Virus record (IMG/VR): IMGVR_UViG_3300025000_000129
Location: 1-55,321 of that record
Length of the DNA stretch: 55,321 nt
DNA from: a virus
Reading direction: 5' to 3' (one strand)
Both the position numbers and the translations under genes were made by a program. The number at the start of each line of letters is the position of its first letter. Position 1 is the first letter of the stretch. Positions 4,289-31,075 of this stretch are shown piece by piece. Below the pieces are notes generated by a model. The model saw nothing but the letters and a program-made list of their open reading frames with translations, ran no database searches and was not told the DNA's origin.

Positions 4289-5257
4289 TTATGCTGTTTC
4301 CTTTGCCTTGATTACCCTGTCAAGATACCACTGGGCTTTGCGAAGATCCTCAAGTCCGCCTTTATAACGATACCTGGATAAATACTTAAGCGCATTACCT
4401 ACGCAGAATCCCTCGAACATTTCTGTCGGCATTTTGTCCTGCAGGTAATCAATAACCTCTATTGTGCCTGTGGTATAATGCTTTGGATGATTAATGTTAT
4501 CAGCAGCTACCATCTCCATCATCTCGTCAACCTCAGCAGCTGTGTCGATCTTCTTTATTGATTCCTTGGCCTTTTGAACGACAGCTTCATTTGCTACACC
4601 TGCAATACCTGCAATCTCTGGATATTCCTCTGTTTCAATAACCGTTTCCACATGCTCTTCGTGGCTGTTGATGTCAGAAATCGCAAATTCATCCGCAATC
4701 ACTATATCCGTATTTGTTCCAATTAACTTTTCCTTCTTCACACCCTGTTTCTTCCCATTCAGCAACATTGTCACCTTTGCCATAATCATGCTCATTTTCA
4801 TTGCCGGATACGATTCTGCAAACTGTTCCGCTATCTCTTTTACCGTCATCCCTCTGCCCGTCATTTCCTTTACCGCTTCTTTCGTCATCTTACTCATTTC
4901 TTCACCCTCACCTTTCTTCTTCATCAAGTTTCTATAACAGGCAGCTCCCGTGCCTTTCCTGTACTCTTCCATACTGCAGCTTGTCTCTTCCCGTTCAACC
5001 TTCATCACGTCCACCATCGGCTTAAACCGTATTTCTATACTATCTTCCAACTGCAATCTATACCTGCGTTGCCTCAGGTCGATAATGTTTATTGTTTCAA
5101 TGTATCCGGTGTCCTTCCGCAGTCTGAGCATACGATCAGTGATTGCTTCCACAGAGAAGAGACCTATTCTTCGATAGCCACCGGGTTTACTTGTGGTACC
5201 TTTTTTGAATTTTAAAAGAAAAACCTTCGTTCCAACCTGTAAATCATTAGCGTTCAA
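4289..5257 (-). CDS. DUF3310-domain protein with N-terminal extension, 322 aa
   Basis: The last about 75 residues carry the DUF3310 signature: INHPKHYTTGTIEVIDYL, then NALKYLSRYRYKGGLEDLRK and AQWYLDRVI. This domain is widespread in phages and often labelled nucleotide-kinase-associated, without a proven reaction. The first 110 residues are beta-rich and unrecognised. A helical middle part (KMTKEAVKEMTGRGMTVKEI) looks like a short DNA-binding or multimerisation element. Such a long N-terminal extension is unusual for DUF3310 proteins. It uses a TTG start with GTGAGGTGA upstream. Confidence 0.75.
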   Translation of the reverse strand: MNANDLQVGTKVFLLKFKKGTTSKPGGYRRIGLFSVEAITDRMLRLRKDTGYIETINIIDLRQRRYRLQLEDSIEIRFKPMVDVMKVEREETSCSMEEYRKGTGAACYRNLMKKKGEGEEMSKMTKEAVKEMTGRGMTVKEIAEQFAESYPAMKMSMIMAKVTMLLNGKKQGVKKEKLIGTNTDIVIADEFAISDINSHEEHVETVIETEEYPEIAGIAGVANEAVVQKAKESIKKIDTAAEVDEMMEMVAADNINHPKHYTTGTIEVIDYLQDKMPTEMFEGFCVGNALKYLSRYRYKGGLEDLRKAQWYLDRVIKAKETA

Positions 5258-8857: not shown

Positions 8858-9151
8858 CTAAAAAGGTATTTCCATGTGCTCCTTCAATTCTGCTTCCGTA
8901 GCCCCTGCCCGCTTAAGCAACTGCCAAACATCATTCAATGTCGCAAGTAGATTGAGATACATGGGTCCGTACTGCTCTTTTTGCTCTGCTGTTGCCGCAT
9001 CACTCTCCAACCAGTTCCCCATCTGTTCCTGCGTCCTTGCAAGCTCCGCTAACTTATCTAACGTGGCAAGCTTTTCATAGCCACCCAACTCAATCTTATA
9101 AGTATAATCATCTGCAACAACAACCTTGAAAACATGCTCCTGACCTGCCAT
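8858..9151 (-). CDS. Small SSB-adjacent protein ending in EIPF, 97 aa
   Basis: Not recognised by family. It has a beta-like N-terminus (HVFKVVVADDYTYKIELGGY) and a helical C-terminus that ends ELKEHMEIPF. The last residues resemble the acidic-hydrophobic tip of bacterial SSB (DIPF), which the SSB encoded next to it lacks. It lies between SSB and primase, with AGGTG before the ATG at 9151. A role as a replication mediator is inference. Confidence 0.7.
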   Translation of the reverse strand: MAGQEHVFKVVVADDYTYKIELGGYEKLATLDKLAELARTQEQMGNWLESDAATAEQKEQYGPMYLNLLATLNDVWQLLKRAGATEAELKEHMEIPF

Positions 9152-12231: not shown

Positions 12232-12932
12232 AACTCTTCTCCCTTCAGCCCCTCCGGCCATTCCTGTATCGAAAACTGCTCATATAACGGAGACTTCACA
12301 AACACTGGTACGCCTGCCGCCTTGCACTGGTCAATTATGCTCTGTACCCACTCCGGCTTCGGTGGCACTGCTCCGGCTCCAGTCTGTTGGCCGATAATAA
12401 CCCAATCAAGAAACTGAACATTTCGTAAAGTAATTTCATTTATTTCTCCTAGCAATGGTTCTATGGATAAAAACCTTTTCGCCCTCTTCTTTTGGTCGTC
12501 ACCTGTGGCACAAAACAGATCATACCCTTTGTTTTGCATATCATCCTGATTAGTCACAGTCGCCCCAAACCACATATTGCAGCGGTAATCGTTATAACTT
12601 CGGTAAATTTTTGAGTAATTGTAAGGGTTCTTCGTCAGGAACAAATATTGATGATAATCTGCTCTCTTACAAGCACTAAATACATTTTCTATCCACTCAT
12701 CCGGCACCCATTCCCCAAATAAATCACCTGCGCTCACAACAAATATCTTTGATGGCTTCTTTACTTTCCCTGGCTCATCCAATTTTTTAGGGTTAAACAT
12801 CGGCTCAAAGCTCTTGTTAAATCGATGATACATAGCCTTAGCGTAGCAGTATGGGCAACCATGCAGGCAGCCCGTGACCGGATTCCAAGTATAGTCACAC
12901 CATTCAATGCCGTCTTTACCTTGCTTGTTCAA
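12228..12932 (-). CDS. DUF5131 / Gp37-Gp68-like radical-SAM-type protein, 234 aa
   Basis: Contains IEWCDYTWNPVTGCLHGCPYCYAK, whose CxxxCxxC triad is the iron-sulfur ligand set of radical-SAM enzymes. KIFVVSAGDLFGEWVPDEWI, FLSIEPLLGEI and DWVIIGQQTGAGA are diagnostic of DUF5131. Its substrate is unknown. A TTG at 12932 preceded by GAGGGAGGGG is preferred over the ATG at 12959, which overlaps the previous gene and lacks a ribosome binding site. Confidence 0.88.
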   Translation of the reverse strand: MNKQGKDGIEWCDYTWNPVTGCLHGCPYCYAKAMYHRFNKSFEPMFNPKKLDEPGKVKKPSKIFVVSAGDLFGEWVPDEWIENVFSACKRADYHQYLFLTKNPYNYSKIYRSYNDYRCNMWFGATVTNQDDMQNKGYDLFCATGDDQKKRAKRFLSIEPLLGEINEITLRNVQFLDWVIIGQQTGAGAVPPKPEWVQSIIDQCKAAGVPVFVKSPLYEQFSIQEWPEGLKGEEL

Positions 12933-12949: not shown

Positions 12950-13387
12950 TCACATCCATACCGATTCATCATCTGGTATGGTATCAAAATTAATATAATG
13001 CTCCTTAACCCAGTCAGGGACATCTCCACCCCATATACGTCTTATGTCCCCAGCAGTAAAGCCTACCACTCCTCCGCTTTGCTTTACGGCAATGTCAAAA
13101 GCCGCACGGATACTGCAGGTTATTTGTACAAAAAACCTATTCTCATCATACTCGCCGTTCTTTTCATTCCATTTCCTGTACTCGTCAAAAGAATTGTCCA
13201 CACTCTCACTGCAATCCGCACAGTCCCAGCATTCTATTTCTTTCCACGTTTCGTTACAATCCATTGCCTTAAAGAAGGACTCAACCTCCTTTGCAATTTT
13301 ATCCCGCCGTGCCTCTGTAGTATTCGGATAGTTTCCGGCCATCCTTGCTGAAAATTCCTTCCAACGGTCGTACTGTTCTTTTGTCAT
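12950..13387 (-). CDS. Hypothetical early protein, 145 aa
   Basis: Starts MTKEQYDRWKEFSARMAGNY at 13387, sharing one base with the stop of the RecU-like gene (TGATG). It includes CWDCADC and otherwise lacks a recognised domain. The C-terminal part FTAGDIRRIWGGDVPDWVKE could be a helix-turn-helix. Unrecognised. Confidence 0.6.
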   Translation of the reverse strand: MTKEQYDRWKEFSARMAGNYPNTTEARRDKIAKEVESFFKAMDCNETWKEIECWDCADCSESVDNSFDEYRKWNEKNGEYDENRFFVQITCSIRAAFDIAVKQSGGVVGFTAGDIRRIWGGDVPDWVKEHYINFDTIPDDESVWM

Positions 13388-14584: not shown

Positions 14585-14839
14585 TTATTTGGCCTCCCTT
14601 TCCGGCACTTCAGGCACCGGCATCCAGCATTTTATTGCTTTTGCCTTTATTACAGGCATTTCAGTGGGTTTTGTGTATGATGCATTTCCGGTATTATTTA
14701 CCGCCCACCATTCTGTGGTTAAATATTTGAACCTTGTAGCTGTGTAAACCTTACCGCCTGCACAAATCAAAACTTGCTTTTCAAGTTCAGGCATTCTTTC
14801 GGTGCATGGAATCCAAACTCCAAACTTATCCATTGTCAC
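14585..14839 (-). CDS. DUF551 protein, 84 aa
   Basis: Short protein with GVWIPCTERMPELEKQVLIC at the N-terminus and KCWMPVPEVPE at the C-terminus, the DUF551 pattern frequent in phages. The GTG start overlaps the SbcDC stop (GTGA), with GAGGAG upstream; an ATG lies two codons later. Function unknown. Confidence 0.78.
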   Translation of the reverse strand: MTMDKFGVWIPCTERMPELEKQVLICAGGKVYTATRFKYLTTEWWAVNNTGNASYTKPTEMPVIKAKAIKCWMPVPEVPEREAK

Positions 14840-17800
14840 AGTCTCCTCACTCTGCTCCCGTTCTCCGTCATTTCAACATATAACTGCTGCGGGAATCTAT
14901 TTTTCATGTCCTCATCGTGCGATATTGCCAGAATCCGCATTTCGGGATATTTATTGTGGATTGTTTCAAGTGCATTGCAGTACCCTTCAATGCCGTCCGC
15001 ATCTAAAAATACAGGCTCGTCCACAAATAACATCCCAAGTTGTAAACCTACTCTTGAAGCCTTTATCATTGCCAACGCAAAACTATTAGCCAGCGCACAG
15101 CGTACTTTTTGACCGCCCGATCTGCTGAGATAAGGTAAGGTTCCGTTGTCCACATCAATTATGATAATCTCCAGCGTTGCAATCTCCTTTGCTTTATTGG
15201 ATTTCAGCACCTTCTCCGTGACAAATTCCAGCCTCATCCTCCCACCGGTCATCTGCCCCAATATCTCATTTGCCGCTGCTTCAAGTTCCGGCACTATGTC
15301 CCTAATGATCTGATATGGAATGCCATCCTGAGAGAAGGCTTCTGAAAGAATCTGCAGCTGTGCCGCCTGTTTAGCCGCTGTGGATAGCTCAGCCTGTTTT
15401 GCCGTCAGCTGCGCCCTCTGTGTGGAAATGACTTCGAGTTTTGCATTGATATTGCCAATCTGCTGATTGAGTGTGGAAATATCGGACTCAATAACCTTTA
15501 TCGTTAGCTCATTATCCCTAATGGACTGCCTTAAAACCTCTCTATTATCCGTCAGCCTCTGCAGTTCCGCAATCCTATCGCTTGCCTTCCCGATAGCCAG
15601 AACCAATTCCGCCAAATCCGATCCTAACTGCTTGATCGCATCGCCCGTGGACTCCACAAACTGCTTAGCTTTCGGCAGCTGCATTTTCTGTTCTTCGAAG
15701 CGTAACAGCGAATTAACCCTGACTTTCAATTCAGCGTGCTTGCTGGTTTCTTGCTCTAATGCCGCAATTTCCACAGATAACAGTTTGAGCTCCTGATCAC
15801 AATTCGTTATTTTTAATATGAGCTCGGCATCCTGACCAACAAGCGCATCCGCTGTGGCACTGTCAGCCGCCATTTTAGATAGCCTATCCTTTGCCACTCT
15901 GAATGTCTTGGCTTCCTGAATAAGCGCATTATGGAAATCTCCGTCGTACTGCAAATTAACAATTTCAACGCTGATTTTGTCTGCAGCATCAACCAGACTT
16001 TCAATTCCTTTTTCTCTTTCAGGCCTGTACGCTTCCAGTTGTTCATTGATATTCTTAATACCGTCCTGAGCATCCCTTGCAGACTTAAGGAACTTGCATT
16101 TTGCATTTACCGAATCTATGCAGTTAGAATCTTTTAGCATTGCAGTCTGACTTTCAAGCCATTTGAGTTTATCCCCGAAGGAGGAAAGCGCCCTTTCCGT
16201 CTCGCGGTCATAAGTACGAGTTGAGGTATCGGCTTCAATTTCCAGCCGCTTGAGTTCCCTGTATTCTGCCGCCTTTTTTTCGCACTCTTCCAAATCCGCC
16301 TCAATTGTGTTCTCGTTAACAACCTTTTCGAGCCTCTCCTTGTCCTCAAGCCTCTTCTTGATTGTTGCCAGACTAATGGCAATTTCTTTACGCTTCAACT
16401 GCGCAAAACTGAACTCCAGGTTTGCCTTACCGCATTGAACATTCTTATCTTCCAGCATTGCAACCTTGCCATCCAGCGCCGCAATATCAAGCCTAGCCCT
16501 GTCAAGTTCAGCACACCTGTCAAGAATGTTCTGCTCACCCTGTAAAAACGTCTCAGTCTCAAATACCCTGTTTTCCAAATCAGCTTTCCGGTTTTTCTTC
16601 TCACTGTAGGAATCCGTCTTTACTTTCAGCTCCCGTTCCAGCTCTCCGGCCTCCCTGACGTAGCCATCCATTGCCGCAAGCTGAGCCTGATATCCTGCCA
16701 ACTCGGTTCTTGCTGCCTGTAAATCCTGTGTGGACACAGCCAGTGAAGTTTCAACCTGAGCCTTTTCGGTGTAGAGATCATCCTCAAAAGCAACGTCACT
16801 TTCCAGCTTTTCAATGTCGGTTTTTAATACCTTGATAGTTCGGTTAACATCGGTTAATTTTTCTTTTGCCAGCTTTTCCAGTTCGTCATAAATGCCTAAA
16901 TCTAATAAGCTTGCAAGCACGTTCATTCTGTCTTCTTTGCTGGCTTCCATGAATTTCCCGTATCTGTCTTGCATAATCAGTACACAGCTCTGAAACGTGT
17001 CGCAGTCCATGCCGAGAAGGTCTTTAATTTTCTGCTGTGTGTCGGTAAAGCGTTCGCAGGAATGGTCTTGGTATATCATACCTATAGGGATTCCATCCTC
17101 TTCATAACCTCCAGTCAGTTTCGCCAGCGCCAGTGTCGCCTTCCCACTTCTCTGCCTCGTCCTCGTCACTCTCCACAGATCATCACCCAGCTTGAATGTA
17201 AACGATATACTCCCCGACTTCTCCCCGTTCCGAATCCATCCAGTAAGCTCCTTTTCCCGGGTCTCTTCATACAGACAATCAGTAATGGCATCCATAAATA
17301 AACTGCTCTTTCCGCTGCCGTTCTTGCCGTTGACCATGGCAAAGAATATGTCCTCAAAAGAAAGCTTTTCTTCTGCATAGCTGCGGTAGTTGCGGACCTC
17401 GATTTCCACAGGCAGGAATAACCCGGAAGTGGTACCGATGGGAGAACTGGCTTGGGCCTCTTCAATGATTTCAAGTGCATATTCCTTAAGAATGGAATCA
17501 GGAGTTATTTTTTTTTCATTTAAATACCTGTTAAGACAATCCCCCACCGTCAGCTTCTCCGTCATTCTGTCCCGGTTCACTGCAGCCGTCACCTTCTCCG
17601 GTCTAATCTCCGACACATAATAAGCACCGGCAGCATACAGGTCACGTTCCAACTTCTTTTTGTCTAGGGCCTTTTCTGTTTCGCTGTCGCAGGTGTAGAG
17701 GACACGGACGACCTCTCCGCCAATCCCGCAATCACAGAAAAAGTTTTTGCCTGCAATATAATTACTTATAATTTCTTGATTACCTAAAAGCGTATGGAAC

Positions 17801-18639
17801 TCCCTGGCAGGTGTCTTTATAAACTCATAAAAATTAGTAATGCCACCATGGTTCAACTGTGTTATCCAAAACCCCTTCTCATGCCCTTCATCATTGAAAG
17901 TATTTGCATCTATCGAACCCGCATAATAAACCGGCTTGCTGCAAGCCATTACCCTCTGCGCCTTATGTATATGCCCCAAACAGACCAAATCAAAAGCAGA
18001 ATTATCCAGTGTATTAGTATCCAAAACAACCTCATTAGCCTGAAAAACATGCGTCCCATTGTCCAACTCGCAGCCCACAACCGTATGATGCGCCATAAGA
18101 ACCGATGGTATTGTGGAATTAACCTGAGCCGATAAGCCCTGCACAACGCTGGCCAATTGCTGAGTAAATACCTGATTCTCTTCCTCTGCTGACAGCCCTG
18201 GGAACTGAGCTCGGAAGTGTCCTTTGTCGAAGCCGGGCAGACCTGCTATTTGGATGGGACCGGACTTGGTTTGGATGATTGACATTTCAGGCAAAACGAA
18301 GAATGTAACATTATCATTGGTTAATGCAATTAATGCTCCGAATTGTCCTGGACCATCATGATTTGGTGTGCCGTAAAGAACCGTGACAGGAGCAATCTCT
18401 GATAGCTCGTTTAAATAATCAGCCGCTATTTGAACCTCTGTCAAGGCTCTTTCAGCCCACACCTTTGCAGTGTGAAATATATCGCCCGCAATTAATATAA
18501 TGTCCGGCTGCTCTGCCCTAGCTGTCTCAACCAAACGGTCAAGACAGCGCATAGTATTCTCCATCCTCTTCATTGGATCATCGCACTGAGGGCCTACATA
18601 AGCCCCCAGGTGCCAATCTGCGCTATGTAATATCTTCAT
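14836..18639 (-). CDS. Fused SbcD-SbcC (Mre11-Rad50-like) exonuclease, 1267 aa
   Basis: One polypeptide carries both halves of the Mre11-Rad50 machine. Residues 1 to about 400 are a calcineurin-like phosphoesterase: HSADWHLGAY, LIAGDIFH, GTPNHDG, LMAHHTVVG and LGHIHKAQ supply the metal ligands. After about residue 405 comes the Rad50 ABC head: VNGKNGSGKSS (Walker A), long heptad coiled coils with a central CIDSVNAKC where the zinc hook is expected, then LSRSGGQKVRCALA (signature) and GMLFVDEPVFLDADG (Walker B). In most organisms these are two genes. It processes DNA ends for recombination-dependent replication. Confidence 0.92.
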   Translation of the reverse strand: MKILHSADWHLGAYVGPQCDDPMKRMENTMRCLDRLVETARAEQPDIILIAGDIFHTAKVWAERALTEVQIAADYLNELSEIAPVTVLYGTPNHDGPGQFGALIALTNDNVTFFVLPEMSIIQTKSGPIQIAGLPGFDKGHFRAQFPGLSAEEENQVFTQQLASVVQGLSAQVNSTIPSVLMAHHTVVGCELDNGTHVFQANEVVLDTNTLDNSAFDLVCLGHIHKAQRVMACSKPVYYAGSIDANTFNDEGHEKGFWITQLNHGGITNFYEFIKTPAREFHTLLGNQEIISNYIAGKNFFCDCGIGGEVVRVLYTCDSETEKALDKKKLERDLYAAGAYYVSEIRPEKVTAAVNRDRMTEKLTVGDCLNRYLNEKKITPDSILKEYALEIIEEAQASSPIGTTSGLFLPVEIEVRNYRSYAEEKLSFEDIFFAMVNGKNGSGKSSLFMDAITDCLYEETREKELTGWIRNGEKSGSISFTFKLGDDLWRVTRTRQRSGKATLALAKLTGGYEEDGIPIGMIYQDHSCERFTDTQQKIKDLLGMDCDTFQSCVLIMQDRYGKFMEASKEDRMNVLASLLDLGIYDELEKLAKEKLTDVNRTIKVLKTDIEKLESDVAFEDDLYTEKAQVETSLAVSTQDLQAARTELAGYQAQLAAMDGYVREAGELERELKVKTDSYSEKKNRKADLENRVFETETFLQGEQNILDRCAELDRARLDIAALDGKVAMLEDKNVQCGKANLEFSFAQLKRKEIAISLATIKKRLEDKERLEKVVNENTIEADLEECEKKAAEYRELKRLEIEADTSTRTYDRETERALSSFGDKLKWLESQTAMLKDSNCIDSVNAKCKFLKSARDAQDGIKNINEQLEAYRPEREKGIESLVDAADKISVEIVNLQYDGDFHNALIQEAKTFRVAKDRLSKMAADSATADALVGQDAELILKITNCDQELKLLSVEIAALEQETSKHAELKVRVNSLLRFEEQKMQLPKAKQFVESTGDAIKQLGSDLAELVLAIGKASDRIAELQRLTDNREVLRQSIRDNELTIKVIESDISTLNQQIGNINAKLEVISTQRAQLTAKQAELSTAAKQAAQLQILSEAFSQDGIPYQIIRDIVPELEAAANEILGQMTGGRMRLEFVTEKVLKSNKAKEIATLEIIIIDVDNGTLPYLSRSGGQKVRCALANSFALAMIKASRVGLQLGMLFVDEPVFLDADGIEGYCNALETIHNKYPEMRILAISHDEDMKNRFPQQLYVEMTENGSRVRRL

Positions 18640-20739: not shown

Positions 20740-20922
20740 TTAAGACTCACCTTCTTCAAAACTTTCGAAGCTTTTGCAGTCAAACAGTTCAAGTTTATTC
20801 TGCATTCCAACTTTCGCTTCCACTGTGGGCAAAACAATTTCACCCGGATTCTCGCAATAACCAGTTTCCACATCGTGGTGTTTACAGCAATCCCAATCGC
20901 ATTTAACCTTTGACACCTTCAA
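20740..20922 (-). CDS. DUF1540-like cysteine-rich protein, about 60 aa
   Basis: KCDWDCCKHHDVETGYCENP followed by KLELFDCKSFE resembles DUF1540 small zinc-binding proteins. The start is unclear: a TTG at 20922 overlaps the AbrB-like stop (TTGA), and GTG codons at 20925 and 20916 are also possible. Role unknown. Confidence 0.6.
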   Translation of the reverse strand: MKVSKVKCDWDCCKHHDVETGYCENPGEIVLPTVEAKVGMQNKLELFDCKSFESFEEGES

Positions 20923-21182
20923 CACTTCCCTTCTCTGTGCGCCTTCCTTAGTCCGTCCCTGCAAGCCCCGCAAATCTGTTTCCCGCCAAACGGCTTCAAA
21001 TCATCCGTACCGCCGCAAAATTCGCATTTCGTCTGAAACTTCCTTAAGATAATGTTTTCGCCGTCAACGAATATCTCCAGCCTGTCCACATCCTCAACGA
21101 TATTAAGTGACTTCCTCAGTTCCTTCGGTAATACTACTCTGCCCAGTTCATCTACTGGTCTTGTCATGCCTGTTGCTTTCAT
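20919..21182 (-). CDS. AbrB-type DNA-binding protein with C-terminal zinc finger, 87 aa
   Basis: Residues 1-50 are a SpoVT/AbrB swapped-hairpin domain: TRPVDELGRVVLPKELRKSL and DRLEIFVDGENIILRKF. The rest is a zinc ribbon (CEFCGG...ICGACR). AbrB proteins with such fingers are common phage and Clostridia regulators. It may regulate the early small-gene cluster. Confidence 0.88.
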   Translation of the reverse strand: MKATGMTRPVDELGRVVLPKELRKSLNIVEDVDRLEIFVDGENIILRKFQTKCEFCGGTDDLKPFGGKQICGACRDGLRKAHREGKC

Positions 21183-21508: not shown

Positions 21509-21808
21509 TTACGCGTACATCTTGACAGGATGCCGCAAATTGTACTGGTATACTGCTCTGCGTTTCGGCTTGCTGAGTTTGGCGAGTTTGGTTGCTTTCC
21601 TGCGGCGTTCAATAGCGGCTTTCTTAATTGGATCTTTTGGATTGCGAATGCCAGGAATGATTTTGCATCCCTCAAACTTGCTGGAGTGAATCGGATTTGC
21701 ATACCTGTTCCCGGCTGCTGACATTGCGAAGATTGCGGCGATTAAACTTTTTATGCCTGATTTGCCTTGACCTGCGTGACCTACTGTACCTATGTTTGGT
21801 TTGTTCAT
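21509..21808 (-). CDS. EF-Tu-like P-loop mini-protein, 99 aa
   Basis: Starts MNKPNIGTVGHAGQGKSGIK with AGGAGGGG upstream. This mirrors the first strand and P-loop of EF-Tu (NIGTIGHVDHGKT), but the remaining 70 residues are short, basic and lack the later G-motifs (DxxG, NKxD). So it is a P-loop fragment-like protein, not a full GTPase. The open frame extends to 21931, but that part covers the tRNA-like RNA and has no ribosome site. It lies directly downstream of that RNA. Confidence 0.65.
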   Translation of the reverse strand: MNKPNIGTVGHAGQGKSGIKSLIAAIFAMSAAGNRYANPIHSSKFEGCKIIPGIRNPKDPIKKAAIERRRKATKLAKLSKPKRRAVYQYNLRHPVKMYA

Positions 21809-21846
21809 ACTCTTAACCCCTCCTATAAATTTATTAGCCTTTCGGC

Positions 21847-21909
21847 TGGTGGGGATGCTGGATTTGAACCAGTCCACGCCGCATTGTGCCGCGCTGTGCC
21901 TACTTCCCC
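21847..21909 (-). ncRNA. tRNA-like RNA lacking an anticodon arm, 63 nt
   Basis: On the minus strand GGGGAAG (21909-21903) pairs with CATCCCC (21857-21851) with one A-A mismatch, followed by A and CCA at the end. A T-arm CTGG-TTCAAAT-CCAG with the invariant GGTTCAAATCC core precedes it. A short D-arm-like hairpin (GCA...TGC) with a GG-containing loop follows the 5' strand. Only about eight bases remain where the anticodon arm should be. It is either a tRNA-like decoy or a degenerate tRNA. No homologue is known to me. Confidence 0.5.
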
Positions 21910-22000
21910 ATGTAAAGCGGGCAAACCTCATTGATTAGCCCGCTTGTGTTATAATTTAATTTGCTGCTAGTACCGTATCGTGGACTAGTCCGGCACCTCG
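21910..22000. other. Gene-free spacer with stable hairpin
   Basis: AAGCGGGC (21915-21922) pairs perfectly with GCCCGCTT (21938-21945). No U-tract follows, so it may shield or process the transcript upstream of the tRNA-like RNA. Nothing else is supported here. Confidence 0.4.
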
Positions 22001-22138
22001 CTAGACAAAGCCGCTTAGGTATCCGGTAACCGTTGAGTTGTGTACCACTCCTGCCCGATCATCTGCTTTCAATCGGTACAGCGGTATCAGACGATATGAC
22101 AGTAATTCATACCAGGCATATCCTACAATTGGTTCCAT
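22001..22138 (-). CDS. Small protein, 45 aa
   Basis: Starts MEPIVGYAWYELLSYRLIPL with AAAGGGGAAG upstream. It has an aromatic-rich N-terminal half and a polar C-terminus. It is supported mainly by its ribosome site and position in the small-gene cluster. Unrecognised. Confidence 0.45.
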   Translation of the reverse strand: MEPIVGYAWYELLSYRLIPLYRLKADDRAGVVHNSTVTGYLSGFV

Positions 22139-22465: not shown

Positions 22466-23599
22466 TTAACCCAATAAACTCATTTGACCTCTGATCTGGT
22501 CTTCGAATTCGCGCCGATGTTCGGCTTCCTTTTTCTGTTGTTTCAGCTTCTTGTACTCGTTATACTTCTGACGGTATCTATAGCTGTCACCGAAAACGTT
22601 CCAAGCAGCCTTTACTAAATTCGGCTCAAATGGACGTATTTTCTCCAAATCCTCTACTGCTCTTGCTGATATAGAGCAACCACAGCAGCCTGTCCGCTTA
22701 AGTCCATATACCTCATATGCATCTGAATATCTAATGTTGTAATAGTCTTTGTACCATTGCTTGTCAGCATCTGACACGTAATATAGTGGCCTAAGTCTAA
22801 ATTGTCCGTCAGCTGTTTCCGAGAAGCACATAGACGTACTGTCTTTACGTGGTACAGACCGCATTCCACCTTCGTCCCTGCGTTCGCCTGTGATTACCAT
22901 ATCAAAATCCTTTTGTGCTGCATGAGCCACATGTTTTTTACAGTAATCACAGCACTTGTTACTAACCTTAAAGGGGATTGGATTTTCTTTGATAAAGTCC
23001 AGCATATATTTTGAGGAGTTTATAACCAGTTGAATATCAGGTCTTGGTTCTCCCTTGGAATTGCAGCAGCATAGGAAATTAATCGTTGTTTCGCATCCCG
23101 GATATCGTTTTTTAAGTTCAGCGCGTTTTGCCGCCTTATCCTCTGCATTTGCGTATTCATCAGCTATTGTCAGTGGAATATTTTTCTTTTGCACTCCCTC
23201 CAACCCAGCCGACATAATCTTTGATACAAAAGGCTGTCCATGTTCCCTTGTGGCAAGCACAATGTTCTTTTTTGGTTTATGCTCGGTAATTGTAATTCCG
23301 TATAGCTCTTCCATCTTGCTTACATGACGCTTTATTGCTTCCATCTCCAATCCGGTGTTAAAAAAACAGTATTGTACCTGTGGAAGATTAAATGTTTTAC
23401 GTGCTGTTTCAATGAGATGCAGCATAATGTCGCTATCGCTGCCGCCAGAATAAGAGCAAATCGCATTCGGATATTCAATCAACCTTTTGGCTATGATGCT
23501 TTTTATTGCCTCAAATTTGCGCGGCGCTTCAAAATCTGCGTACGGTGGTCTGTCTGTGTATACTCTACTTTTAAATTCTGTGTTCTTATTGGATCCCAT
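22466..23599 (-). CDS. PAPS-reductase-like PP-loop protein, 377 aa
   Basis: CSYSGGSDSDIMLHLIETA is the SGGxDS-type PP-loop that binds ATP, as in PAPS reductase/ATP sulfurylase-like enzymes. It is followed by FNTGLEMEAIKRHV, ITGERRDEGGMRS, and a Cys cluster (CCNSKG, CCDYCKKH, CCGCS) that could hold an iron-sulfur or zinc centre. Phage members of this family have no settled reaction. Roles in DNA or nucleotide thiolation have been suggested. The start at 23599 is chosen for GTGAGG six bases upstream. It neighbours two DNA methyltransferases. Confidence 0.82.
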   Translation of the reverse strand: MGSNKNTEFKSRVYTDRPPYADFEAPRKFEAIKSIIAKRLIEYPNAICSYSGGSDSDIMLHLIETARKTFNLPQVQYCFFNTGLEMEAIKRHVSKMEELYGITITEHKPKKNIVLATREHGQPFVSKIMSAGLEGVQKKNIPLTIADEYANAEDKAAKRAELKKRYPGCETTINFLCCCNSKGEPRPDIQLVINSSKYMLDFIKENPIPFKVSNKCCDYCKKHVAHAAQKDFDMVITGERRDEGGMRSVPRKDSTSMCFSETADGQFRLRPLYYVSDADKQWYKDYYNIRYSDAYEVYGLKRTGCCGCSISARAVEDLEKIRPFEPNLVKAAWNVFGDSYRYRQKYNEYKKLKQQKKEAEHRREFEDQIRGQMSLLG

Positions 23600-23659
23600 A
23601 CCAAACCTCACTTTTTATTGTGCAATATTTATAAATTTGGATTTTCTTGTTATTACAAA

Positions 23660-29599: not shown

Positions 29600-30889
29600 A
29601 TGGCAAAATCGAGAAACCCGAAAGGGTTAGGGCATTACTATAAAAAAGATGGGCTGTTCTGCTGGAAGTATGTAAGGGATGGAAAGCCGCTTTACAGATC
29701 ACATAAGACAGAAAAAGGCCTTCAGGCAAAAGTTAAAAAGGTAATCGGCCTTGCTGTCTGCAATGACAAAACGAAAGTATCAAAATATTTTGAAACCTGG
29801 CTCGATGAATTCGTGCAAGCTATGAATAAAAAAGCCACTTATGATCAGTATGGTTTTATATATAAAATTCATATCAAACCCGTAATAGGTGATTATAATA
29901 TGTCTTCTATTACAACCACCGACATCCAAAAAGTAATTCTTGCAATGAATAAAAAAAAGTACGAGAAAAAAGATAAAGATGGTAAAGTAATAGAAACAAA
30001 AATAGGGACCTCCACAAAAACAATGAAGCACGCTAAAACCGTTATGAACGGAGCTTTCACAAGAGCATTTAAAATTGATAAGATCATACCGGAAAACCCC
30101 GTAAAAGACATTCTAATACCGGACAAGCAGCCTAAAAAAAGAAAGACACTGAATACTGATGAACTGGCAAGTTTCCTCACATCATTGCAAGGCTCTCGCT
30201 GGTTGTGGTCCGTAAAATTTGCCCTTGTGACAGGTGTAAGACGCGGAGAACTGCTTGCCTTGAAATGGGCTAATATAGATTGGGATAATAACAGAATAAT
30301 AATAGAAGAATCGGACAGCACATCAGGCCTTGGTGACACCAAAAGCGCAAGGGTTCATTACGTCCCACTGTCTCAATTTGGTAAGGTTTATTTGGACAAG
30401 CAAGTAGCTATGCTTTTAAAGGAAGGCAACAAGGTTACATTTAAAGAAACAGGCGAACAAATGGATCCAAAGGAATTAAAGAAGACGGACCGCTTGATAT
30501 TCCCCAAAGAAACTGGAGAAATGGTCAAACCCAATACCTATTATCATATGATAGTAAGGTATGCCAAAAAATCCGATATAAAGGTTCATCCGCATTGCTT
30601 CAGGCACACGTTTGTATACAATATGAGAAATAAGATGTCGCTGAAAGAGCTACAGGATGCACTAGGCCATGATGAATCTACAACTACATTAGATATATAC
30701 GGCGATATGATCAACGACACAACCGATGCTGTGGCCTCTAAAATCGATATGGTATACACCGGAGTGGAGGTAAATATTGCGAATAGACAAGCTGAAAACT
30801 TAGCAGAAAAAGAGGCTGAAAAAGAAGCAAAAGAACAGGCTGAAGAGTGCAAAATAATTGATATGTTTTCACGCAAAAAAGCAAATTAA
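29600..30889 (+). CDS. int: Tyrosine integrase, 429 aa
   Basis: An N-terminal arm-binding region (GHYYKKDGLFCWKYVRDGKP), a core-binding SAM-like domain (about residues 60-170), then the catalytic domain: LVTGVRRGELLALKW (first Arg), HPHCFRHTFVYNMR (HxxR), DALGHDESTTTLDIYGD (His and nucleophile Tyr). It belongs to the Tn916-like/phage integrase type. The stop codon touches the first attP arm repeat. The C-terminus is extended and acidic (AEKEAEKEAKEQAEECK). Confidence 0.95.
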   Translation: MAKSRNPKGLGHYYKKDGLFCWKYVRDGKPLYRSHKTEKGLQAKVKKVIGLAVCNDKTKVSKYFETWLDEFVQAMNKKATYDQYGFIYKIHIKPVIGDYNMSSITTTDIQKVILAMNKKKYEKKDKDGKVIETKIGTSTKTMKHAKTVMNGAFTRAFKIDKIIPENPVKDILIPDKQPKKRKTLNTDELASFLTSLQGSRWLWSVKFALVTGVRRGELLALKWANIDWDNNRIIIEESDSTSGLGDTKSARVHYVPLSQFGKVYLDKQVAMLLKEGNKVTFKETGEQMDPKELKKTDRLIFPKETGEMVKPNTYYHMIVRYAKKSDIKVHPHCFRHTFVYNMRNKMSLKELQDALGHDESTTTLDIYGDMINDTTDAVASKIDMVYTGVEVNIANRQAENLAEKEAEKEAKEQAEECKIIDMFSRKKAN

Positions 30890-31025: not shown

Positions 31026-31075
31026 CTTGGTTCGGGACCAAGAGGCCGTGGGTTCAAATCCCGCTACTCCGACCA
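31026..31075 (+). other. attP: attP core: 3' fragment of tRNA-Pro(CGG)
   Basis: CTTGG-TTCGGGA-CCAAG (31026-31042) is an anticodon arm with CGG. After AGGCC comes a T-arm GTGGG-TTCAAAT-CCCGC, then TACTCCG, discriminator A and CCA (31073-31075). The 5' half of a tRNA is absent. The phage thus carries the part needed to restore a host tRNA-Pro gene after integration, so the host attB should be the 3' half of tRNA-Pro(CGG). Confidence 0.88.

Follow-up and report, generated by a model that had tools for sequence, protein, structure and literature searches.

Why should a phage carry, between two small genes, an RNA that looks like a tRNA deprived of its anticodon arm? This question is raised by a 63-nt element in the stretch of DNA analysed here, a virus record of 55,321 nt (IMGVR_UViG_3300025000_000129), called the window below (W for its copy of the element), which encodes a terminase, portal, major head protein, primase, helicase and integrase. 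An earlier note on this DNA placed the element at 21847-21909. These coordinates are correct, and the element is read on the minus strand, from 21909 to 21847, as GGGGAAGTAGGCACAGCGCGGCACAATGCGGCGTGGACTGGTTCAAATCCAGCATCCCCACCA. The plus-strand reading was rejected because it gave no tRNA-like fold (z -0.1). A coding reading was also rejected: an ORF from an ATG at 21931 crosses the element, but this ATG sits in the loop of the upstream hairpin, is missing from the corresponding hairpin of the near-copy in another contig (G008), and in G004 the frame is that of an HNH ORF described below. The element is non-coding and intercistronic, as the note had supposed.

Taken from the window alone, the tRNA-like claim is weak. 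The GGGGA/TCCCC pairs of the acceptor stem and a 4-bp T stem (the hairpin CTGG-TTCAAAT-CCAG) are present, but they are interrupted by an A-A mismatch at the sixth acceptor position and an A-C mismatch at the base of the T stem. Similarly, the discriminator A and the encoded CCA end are there, but the CCA overlaps the next conserved hairpin, its last A being the first A of AGCC-GAAA-GGCT, and it is ACA in G008 and G004. The 5' acceptor strand and the T arm are separated by 29 nt, which leaves room for one arm only where a tRNA has two. The D-like form that the note gave to this arm is not secure, since the middle of the minimum free energy structure folds as GCGC.GCA-CAA-TGC.GCGT (total -21.2 kcal/mol) compared with -6.0 for the D-arm drawing. 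The fold is little better than in shuffled controls (z -0.8 to -0.9), and 0.07 matches per simulated 55 kb were obtained with a descriptor written so as to accept the window element. No functional tRNA was recognized at the element by ARAGORN (0 genes) or by Rfam at the gathering threshold (0 matches), the best Rfam match in the window being tRNA-Sec with 16.4 bits vs 47, and neither Rfam (RF00023) nor ARAGORN reported a tmRNA there. The features of the locus are collected in the table.

Table. Features around the tRNA-like element, with positions in the window
Feature	Position	Strand	Basis
Small upstream ORF, 45 aa, MEPIVGYAWYELL...VTGYLSGFV	22001..22138	-	read from sequence
Upstream hairpin AAGCGGGC...GCCCGCTT, 5 nt 5' of the element	21915..21945	-	sequence
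tRNA-like element GGGGAAG ... TTCAAAT ... ATCCCC-A-CCA	21847..21909	-	sequence, folds, near-copy in G008, positional counterparts in G004, G005 and G009
5' acceptor strand GGGGAAG, U at -1	21903..21909	-	pairing probability of G1-G4 1.0; U(-1) in 5/5 elements
Single internal arm and linkers replacing D and anticodon arms	21874..21902	-	MFE hairpin GCGC.GCA-CAA-TGC.GCGT; unrelated 5-bp hairpin in G004
T-arm ACTGG-TTCAAAT-CCAGC, 4 bp and A-C mismatch	21857..21873	-	5-bp stem without mismatch in G008 copy; G004 differs from G008 by three double compensatory changes
3' acceptor strand ATCCCC, discriminator A, CCA end	21847..21856	-	ACAA replaces ACCA in G008 and G004
Leader hairpin AGCC-GAAA-GGCT	21836..21847	-	identical in 8 phage loci; pairing probability 0.91-1.0
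AU-rich spacer and Shine-Dalgarno AATAAATTTATAGGAGG	21819..21835	-	shared leader
Small downstream gene, 99 aa, MNKPNIGTVGHAGQGKS...	21509..21808	-	C-terminal part 88% identical in G001

Relatives were found in viral contigs by the sequence of the leader and not by tRNA shape. The search led to seven further phage contigs with the full leader AGCCGAAAGGCTAATAAATT, giving a set of eight loci, and the majority of the contigs stem from a small number of related samples (3300025000, 3300025009 and 3300025010); one match (L075), an unrelated coding sequence, was left out. The 17-base spacer/Shine-Dalgarno pattern alone returned mostly unrelated AT-rich sites, and an exact search of the viral contigs with the 3' half gave no match. 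No close relative was found in the phages collection at the DNA or protein level, the exact leader was absent from genome_contigs, and no leader with up to three mismatches was found in 394 genomes of the order to which a Ruminococcaceae genome belongs, so the phage group is rare within the collections searched. In four of the seven other contigs (G008, G004, G005 and G009), a tRNA-like element ends exactly at the leader, and in the other three (G001, G002 and G003) a plain hairpin ending TACCA takes this place. ARAGORN found no ordinary tRNA gene in the fetched parts of the leader contigs.

The element of G008 (L070) is a near-copy of that in the window (95% over 103 nt); its T stem is paired over all 5 bp, and it has ACA where the window has CCA. 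That of G004 (L010/L058) reads GGGGAAG-TAGC-GGACC-TCATGTT-GGTCC-CTTA-GTGAG-TGCAATT-CTCAC-CTTCCCC-ACA and forms an acceptor/T stack in which all 7+5 bp are paired, beside a single 5-bp arm (z -3.7, 0/1000 shuffles). Here, an ORF resembling an HNH homing endonuclease (L058 10954-11484, minus strand) lies between the upstream hairpin and the element, starting in that same hairpin and ending inside the tRNA-like element. G005 (L054 2578-2691, plus strand) holds a 114-nt tRNA-Ser-like element with the acceptor paired 7/7, the T arm 5/5 and an ACCA end, in which a TCC/GGA D stem, an anticodon stem (TGGGA/TCTCA) whose loop is about 37 nt long and a variable arm GCGAAAGC can be drawn by eye. If its D-loop is read as GAGTGATTAAA with the T-loop TTTGAAT, the elbow pair G19-C56 is replaced by A19-U56, in our own numbering and in this single case. 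G009 (L071 4174-4362, plus strand) holds a 189-nt tRNA-Leu-like element, likewise with acceptor 7/7, T arm 5/5 and ACCA, and with a large insert of roughly 100 nt for which Rfam gave no match to a group I intron. The tRNA-Ser and tRNA-Leu backgrounds of G005 and G009 were assigned by matches to phage tRNA genes and to tRNA genes of Clostridia. The elements share these backgrounds with known phage tRNA genes, but they differ from them in having no intact anticodon arm and in being missed by ARAGORN and by the Rfam tRNA model at its gathering threshold. It is evident that the anticodon region was deleted, enlarged or replaced in all five elements. The T-loop, which the note had called invariant, varies among the relatives (TTCAAAT, TGCAATT, TTTGAAT and TTCGATT).

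The tRNA-like domain of tmRNA is similar in being a tRNA top half without an anticodon arm, and the G004 element gave a sub-threshold match to RF00023 (E 0.006, 16.9 bits, gathering 47). A tmRNA was nevertheless rejected: this score is far below gathering, the match spans the whole model only via a huge deletion, and no tag ORF or pseudoknots were found. Apart from the leader slot, G004 has a second tRNA-like stretch (L057, about 4691-4770, minus strand) with an Asn(GTT)-type arm and a T arm before the ribosome-binding site of another gene, scoring 21.4 bits with the Rfam tRNA model, below gathering. The same contig carries Pistol and Twister-P5 ribozymes and an int-alpA RNA, all above the Rfam gathering thresholds (12250-12320 and 13044-13094, plus strand; 9046-9113, minus strand).

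To the whole set we applied a descriptor anchored at the leader, which demands a T arm with at least four of five pairs, T54 and A58, an acceptor with at most one mismatch, and an end at the leader. It matched at five of the eight leaders vs 442 matches among 108,000 positions drawn at random from these genomes (0.4%); W and G008 are not independent, and the excess over the control is still very large without one of them. By this descriptor and by pair counts, an acceptor stem and a T arm with T54 and A58 are present across the five elements, the window copy with its two mismatches. Free drift of the stems, which the earlier note proposed to look for in relatives, was not the picture obtained: 95% of the acceptor/T-stem cells are paired (12/12 pairs in three elements, 11 in G008 and 10 in W), 10 of the 12 pairs show double-sided changes, and the covariation score is 0.83 vs 0.33 for shuffles (0/500 as high), falling to about 0.24 when the partner is slid by one base. 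These values were obtained on a 31-nt composite of acceptor and T arm that leaves out the variable middle, with W and G008 set to start at the U before G1, and different kinds of tRNA co-vary like this by descent; we therefore read the count as showing a tRNA top half and not yet selection in the slot. In substance, the data support a tRNA-like RNA lacking an anticodon arm, with covarying stems and an anticodon region lost or altered. G008 and G004, which have a common 5' CATGGGGAAGTAG and the 3' leader, are separated by three double compensatory changes in the T stem. When W, G008 and G004 were aligned with MAFFT, one T-stem base was misplaced.

The pairing could, however, be inherited, and it would also be expected from recently captured, slowly decaying tRNA genes. 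Such relics, namely host tRNA genes captured at a cistron boundary that lost the anticodon region and decay without function, are the main rival to the reading favoured below and in our view a somewhat unlikely explanation, though several observations agree with them: G005 and G009 look like genes for tRNA-Ser and tRNA-Leu carrying insertions, two pairs are mismatched in the stems of the window copy, and the slot of G001 holds a shorter, remnant-like stretch (GGGAGA...TTCCACCA). Decay does not readily account for acceptor and T stems that are paired 12/12 in three of five elements despite a wrecked middle, or for the T stems of G004 and of the window/G008 type, which are largely different yet paired between common flanks. 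The elements of W and G008 are about 95% identical while their flanks hardly align, which recent exchange would explain too. Moreover, relics would require repeated capture into one slot.

A separate tRNA-derived sequence, distinct from the element, is found elsewhere in the window. The 3' half of a tRNA-Pro(CGG) (31029-31075, plus strand) adjoins the integrase ORF (29600-30889) and matches exactly the tRNA-Pro genes of Oscillospiraceae, Ruminococcaceae and another Clostridia genome. It is likely the phage attachment site (attP), and this putative attP, as the single basis, points to a temperate phage with a Clostridia host. G008 has an attP-like site of the same kind as the window, and G003 has a tRNA-Leu-like one. 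With the attP-like tRNA-Pro half located there, the idea that the 63-nt element is an attP relic was rejected; the element includes a paired 5' strand of its own, and about 8 kb separate it from the integrase.

The surroundings of the element bear on how it might act. The slot is intercistronic, with the 45-aa ORF and a hairpin on its 5' side and the Shine-Dalgarno leader of the next gene on its 3' side. Judged by eye, 5-6 nt separate the hairpin from the element downstream of it in four of the five cases, G004 being the exception with about 12 nt. The leader, AGCC-GAAA-GGCT followed by AATAAATTTATAGGAGG, ends 10 nt ahead of the start codon (21808) of the 99-aa ORF. ORFs homologous to the 45-aa ORF, ending GYPxGF(V/F), are found upstream of the slot in G001, G004, G005 and G008. 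The 99-aa product gave no match in Pfam and PHROG searches; its N-terminus MNKPNIGTVGHAGQGKS resembles the first GTPase motif of EF-Tu, and the relative in G001 is without such an N-terminus. The region is flanked by a MazE/AbrB-type antitoxin-like protein and a PAPS reductase-like protein (20919-21182 and 22466-23611, minus strand), and a 1267-aa ORF (14836-18639, minus strand) encodes a single chain with both an SbcD-like metallophosphatase domain and an SbcC-like ATPase. Between the 45-aa ORF and the element, no promoter-like site was found on the minus strand. This, together with the intercistronic place, suggests that the element is not a stand-alone gene and speaks for a part of a polycistronic mRNA that acts in cis, not for a free decoy, though a processed RNA could nonetheless act in trans.

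The idea of the earlier note, a CCA-bearing bait or a primer, is accordingly less well supported than its structural claims, and the bait is weakened further because two of the five elements end in ACA (G008 and G004). We regard as quite improbable a released mimic that binds EF-Tu, a synthetase, the CCA enzyme or a defence nuclease. Three of the five elements do combine an acceptor/T-arm top half with CCA, and loss of the anticodon region would bar the element from decoding, but the CCA is not conserved, the place right before a Shine-Dalgarno leader speaks for action in cis, and a shared synthetase target is unlikely because the tRNA backgrounds differ.

If the element acts in cis, its tRNA shape might be interchangeable, any stable hairpin serving to guard the mRNA 5' end or to tune access to the Shine-Dalgarno sequence. 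Plain hairpins in three of the eight leaders agree with this, and in the window the 3' acceptor strand CCCCACC can pair with GGAGGGG. When the element is cut off, predicted access rises in W (0.44 to 0.82) and G005 (0.58 to 0.91), but not in G008 or G004, and it changes in the reverse direction in G009. A general Shine-Dalgarno-sequestering switch was rejected because of this inconsistency over the five leaders. Moreover, a plain hairpin needs neither a 7-nt T-loop with T54/A58 nor a 12-bp stack, and we consider such a translational or stability element unlikely.

We favour, at a probability of roughly 0.45 and hence somewhat short of even odds, that a domesticated tRNA top half serves as an RNase P-type processing mark between cistrons of the phage polycistronic mRNA. 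This reading fits because the top half is kept while the decoding part was removed in various ways, with hairpins on both sides and in a fixed slot. Host RNase P would read the acceptor/T-arm stack and cut directly 5' of G1, and host 3'-end processing may act near the CCA. After such cuts, a stable hairpin would stand close to the 3' end of the upstream message. The 5' end of the downstream message would fall at the GCC-GAAA-GGC hairpin or shortly before it, with the Shine-Dalgarno sequence following immediately, so that stabilizing hairpins would stand on both sides of the processing mark. That the RNA is made and cut, by this enzyme and to the benefit of expression, we infer from sequence features.

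Model hairpins that lack D and anticodon arms and are built from the acceptor stem and the T stem and loop are known to be cleaved by RNase P, and phage M3 RNA, C4 RNA and some mRNAs are its natural substrates (PMC11143913). The RCCA end and N-1 matter for the enzyme (PMC12710915). With these substrates (acceptor-T minihelices, phage M3 RNA, C4 RNA and his-operon mRNA), our elements share the acceptor/T stack, U(-1), A73, usually RCCA, and a position inside a longer transcript, and an anticodon arm is not needed. They differ in being a putative tRNA-derived intercistronic mark in phage mRNA, known from sequence. In detail, of the coaxial stack of about 12 bp expected for such a substrate, all 12 pairs are present in three elements, 11 in G008 and 10 in W. 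Position -1 is U in all five elements, RCC is complete in three of five, and the discriminator is A in all five if a 6-bp acceptor is assumed for W and G008. The 3' ends are ACCA in W, G005 and G009 and ACAA in G008 and G004. The natural tRNA-like element mascRNA is recognized by its elbow (PMC11693755). It and menRNA (from MALAT1 and MEN-beta) also combine acceptor and T arms with an abnormal anticodon region and direct processing of a longer RNA (PMC11693755), but they belong to eukaryotic nuclear non-coding RNAs, are processed by RNase Z and receive an added CCA, whereas CCA or ACA is encoded here, in a phage mRNA leader. Among open-access papers, we found no report of such phage elements.

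A hairpin stands on each side in all five elements, in agreement with a processing mark. Some other observations count against it. Among the five, pairing is poorest in the window copy, the ACA of G008 and G004 in place of CCA would weaken the RCCA contact, and the homing-endonuclease ORF of G004 runs into the element. The tRNA-like part also seems dispensable at the slot, because three of the eight leaders manage with a plain hairpin. With these reservations, we propose still more tentatively that phages of one group have repeatedly captured tRNAs (Ser, Leu and one unassigned type) and made them into processing signals that lack an anticodon and stand between cistrons, at one leader slot. This would be a phage form of tRNA punctuation in which only the top half recognized by RNase P is kept.

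If this is true, these phages reuse the part of tRNA that is read by host processing enzymes and drop the part used for decoding, and would thereby cut and protect their own messages. The slot would also offer a simple assay for the features needed by natural RNase P substrates in mRNAs. Finally, annotation tools pass over 'broken' tRNA-like genes in phage genomes, and some of these might be explained as such processing signals.
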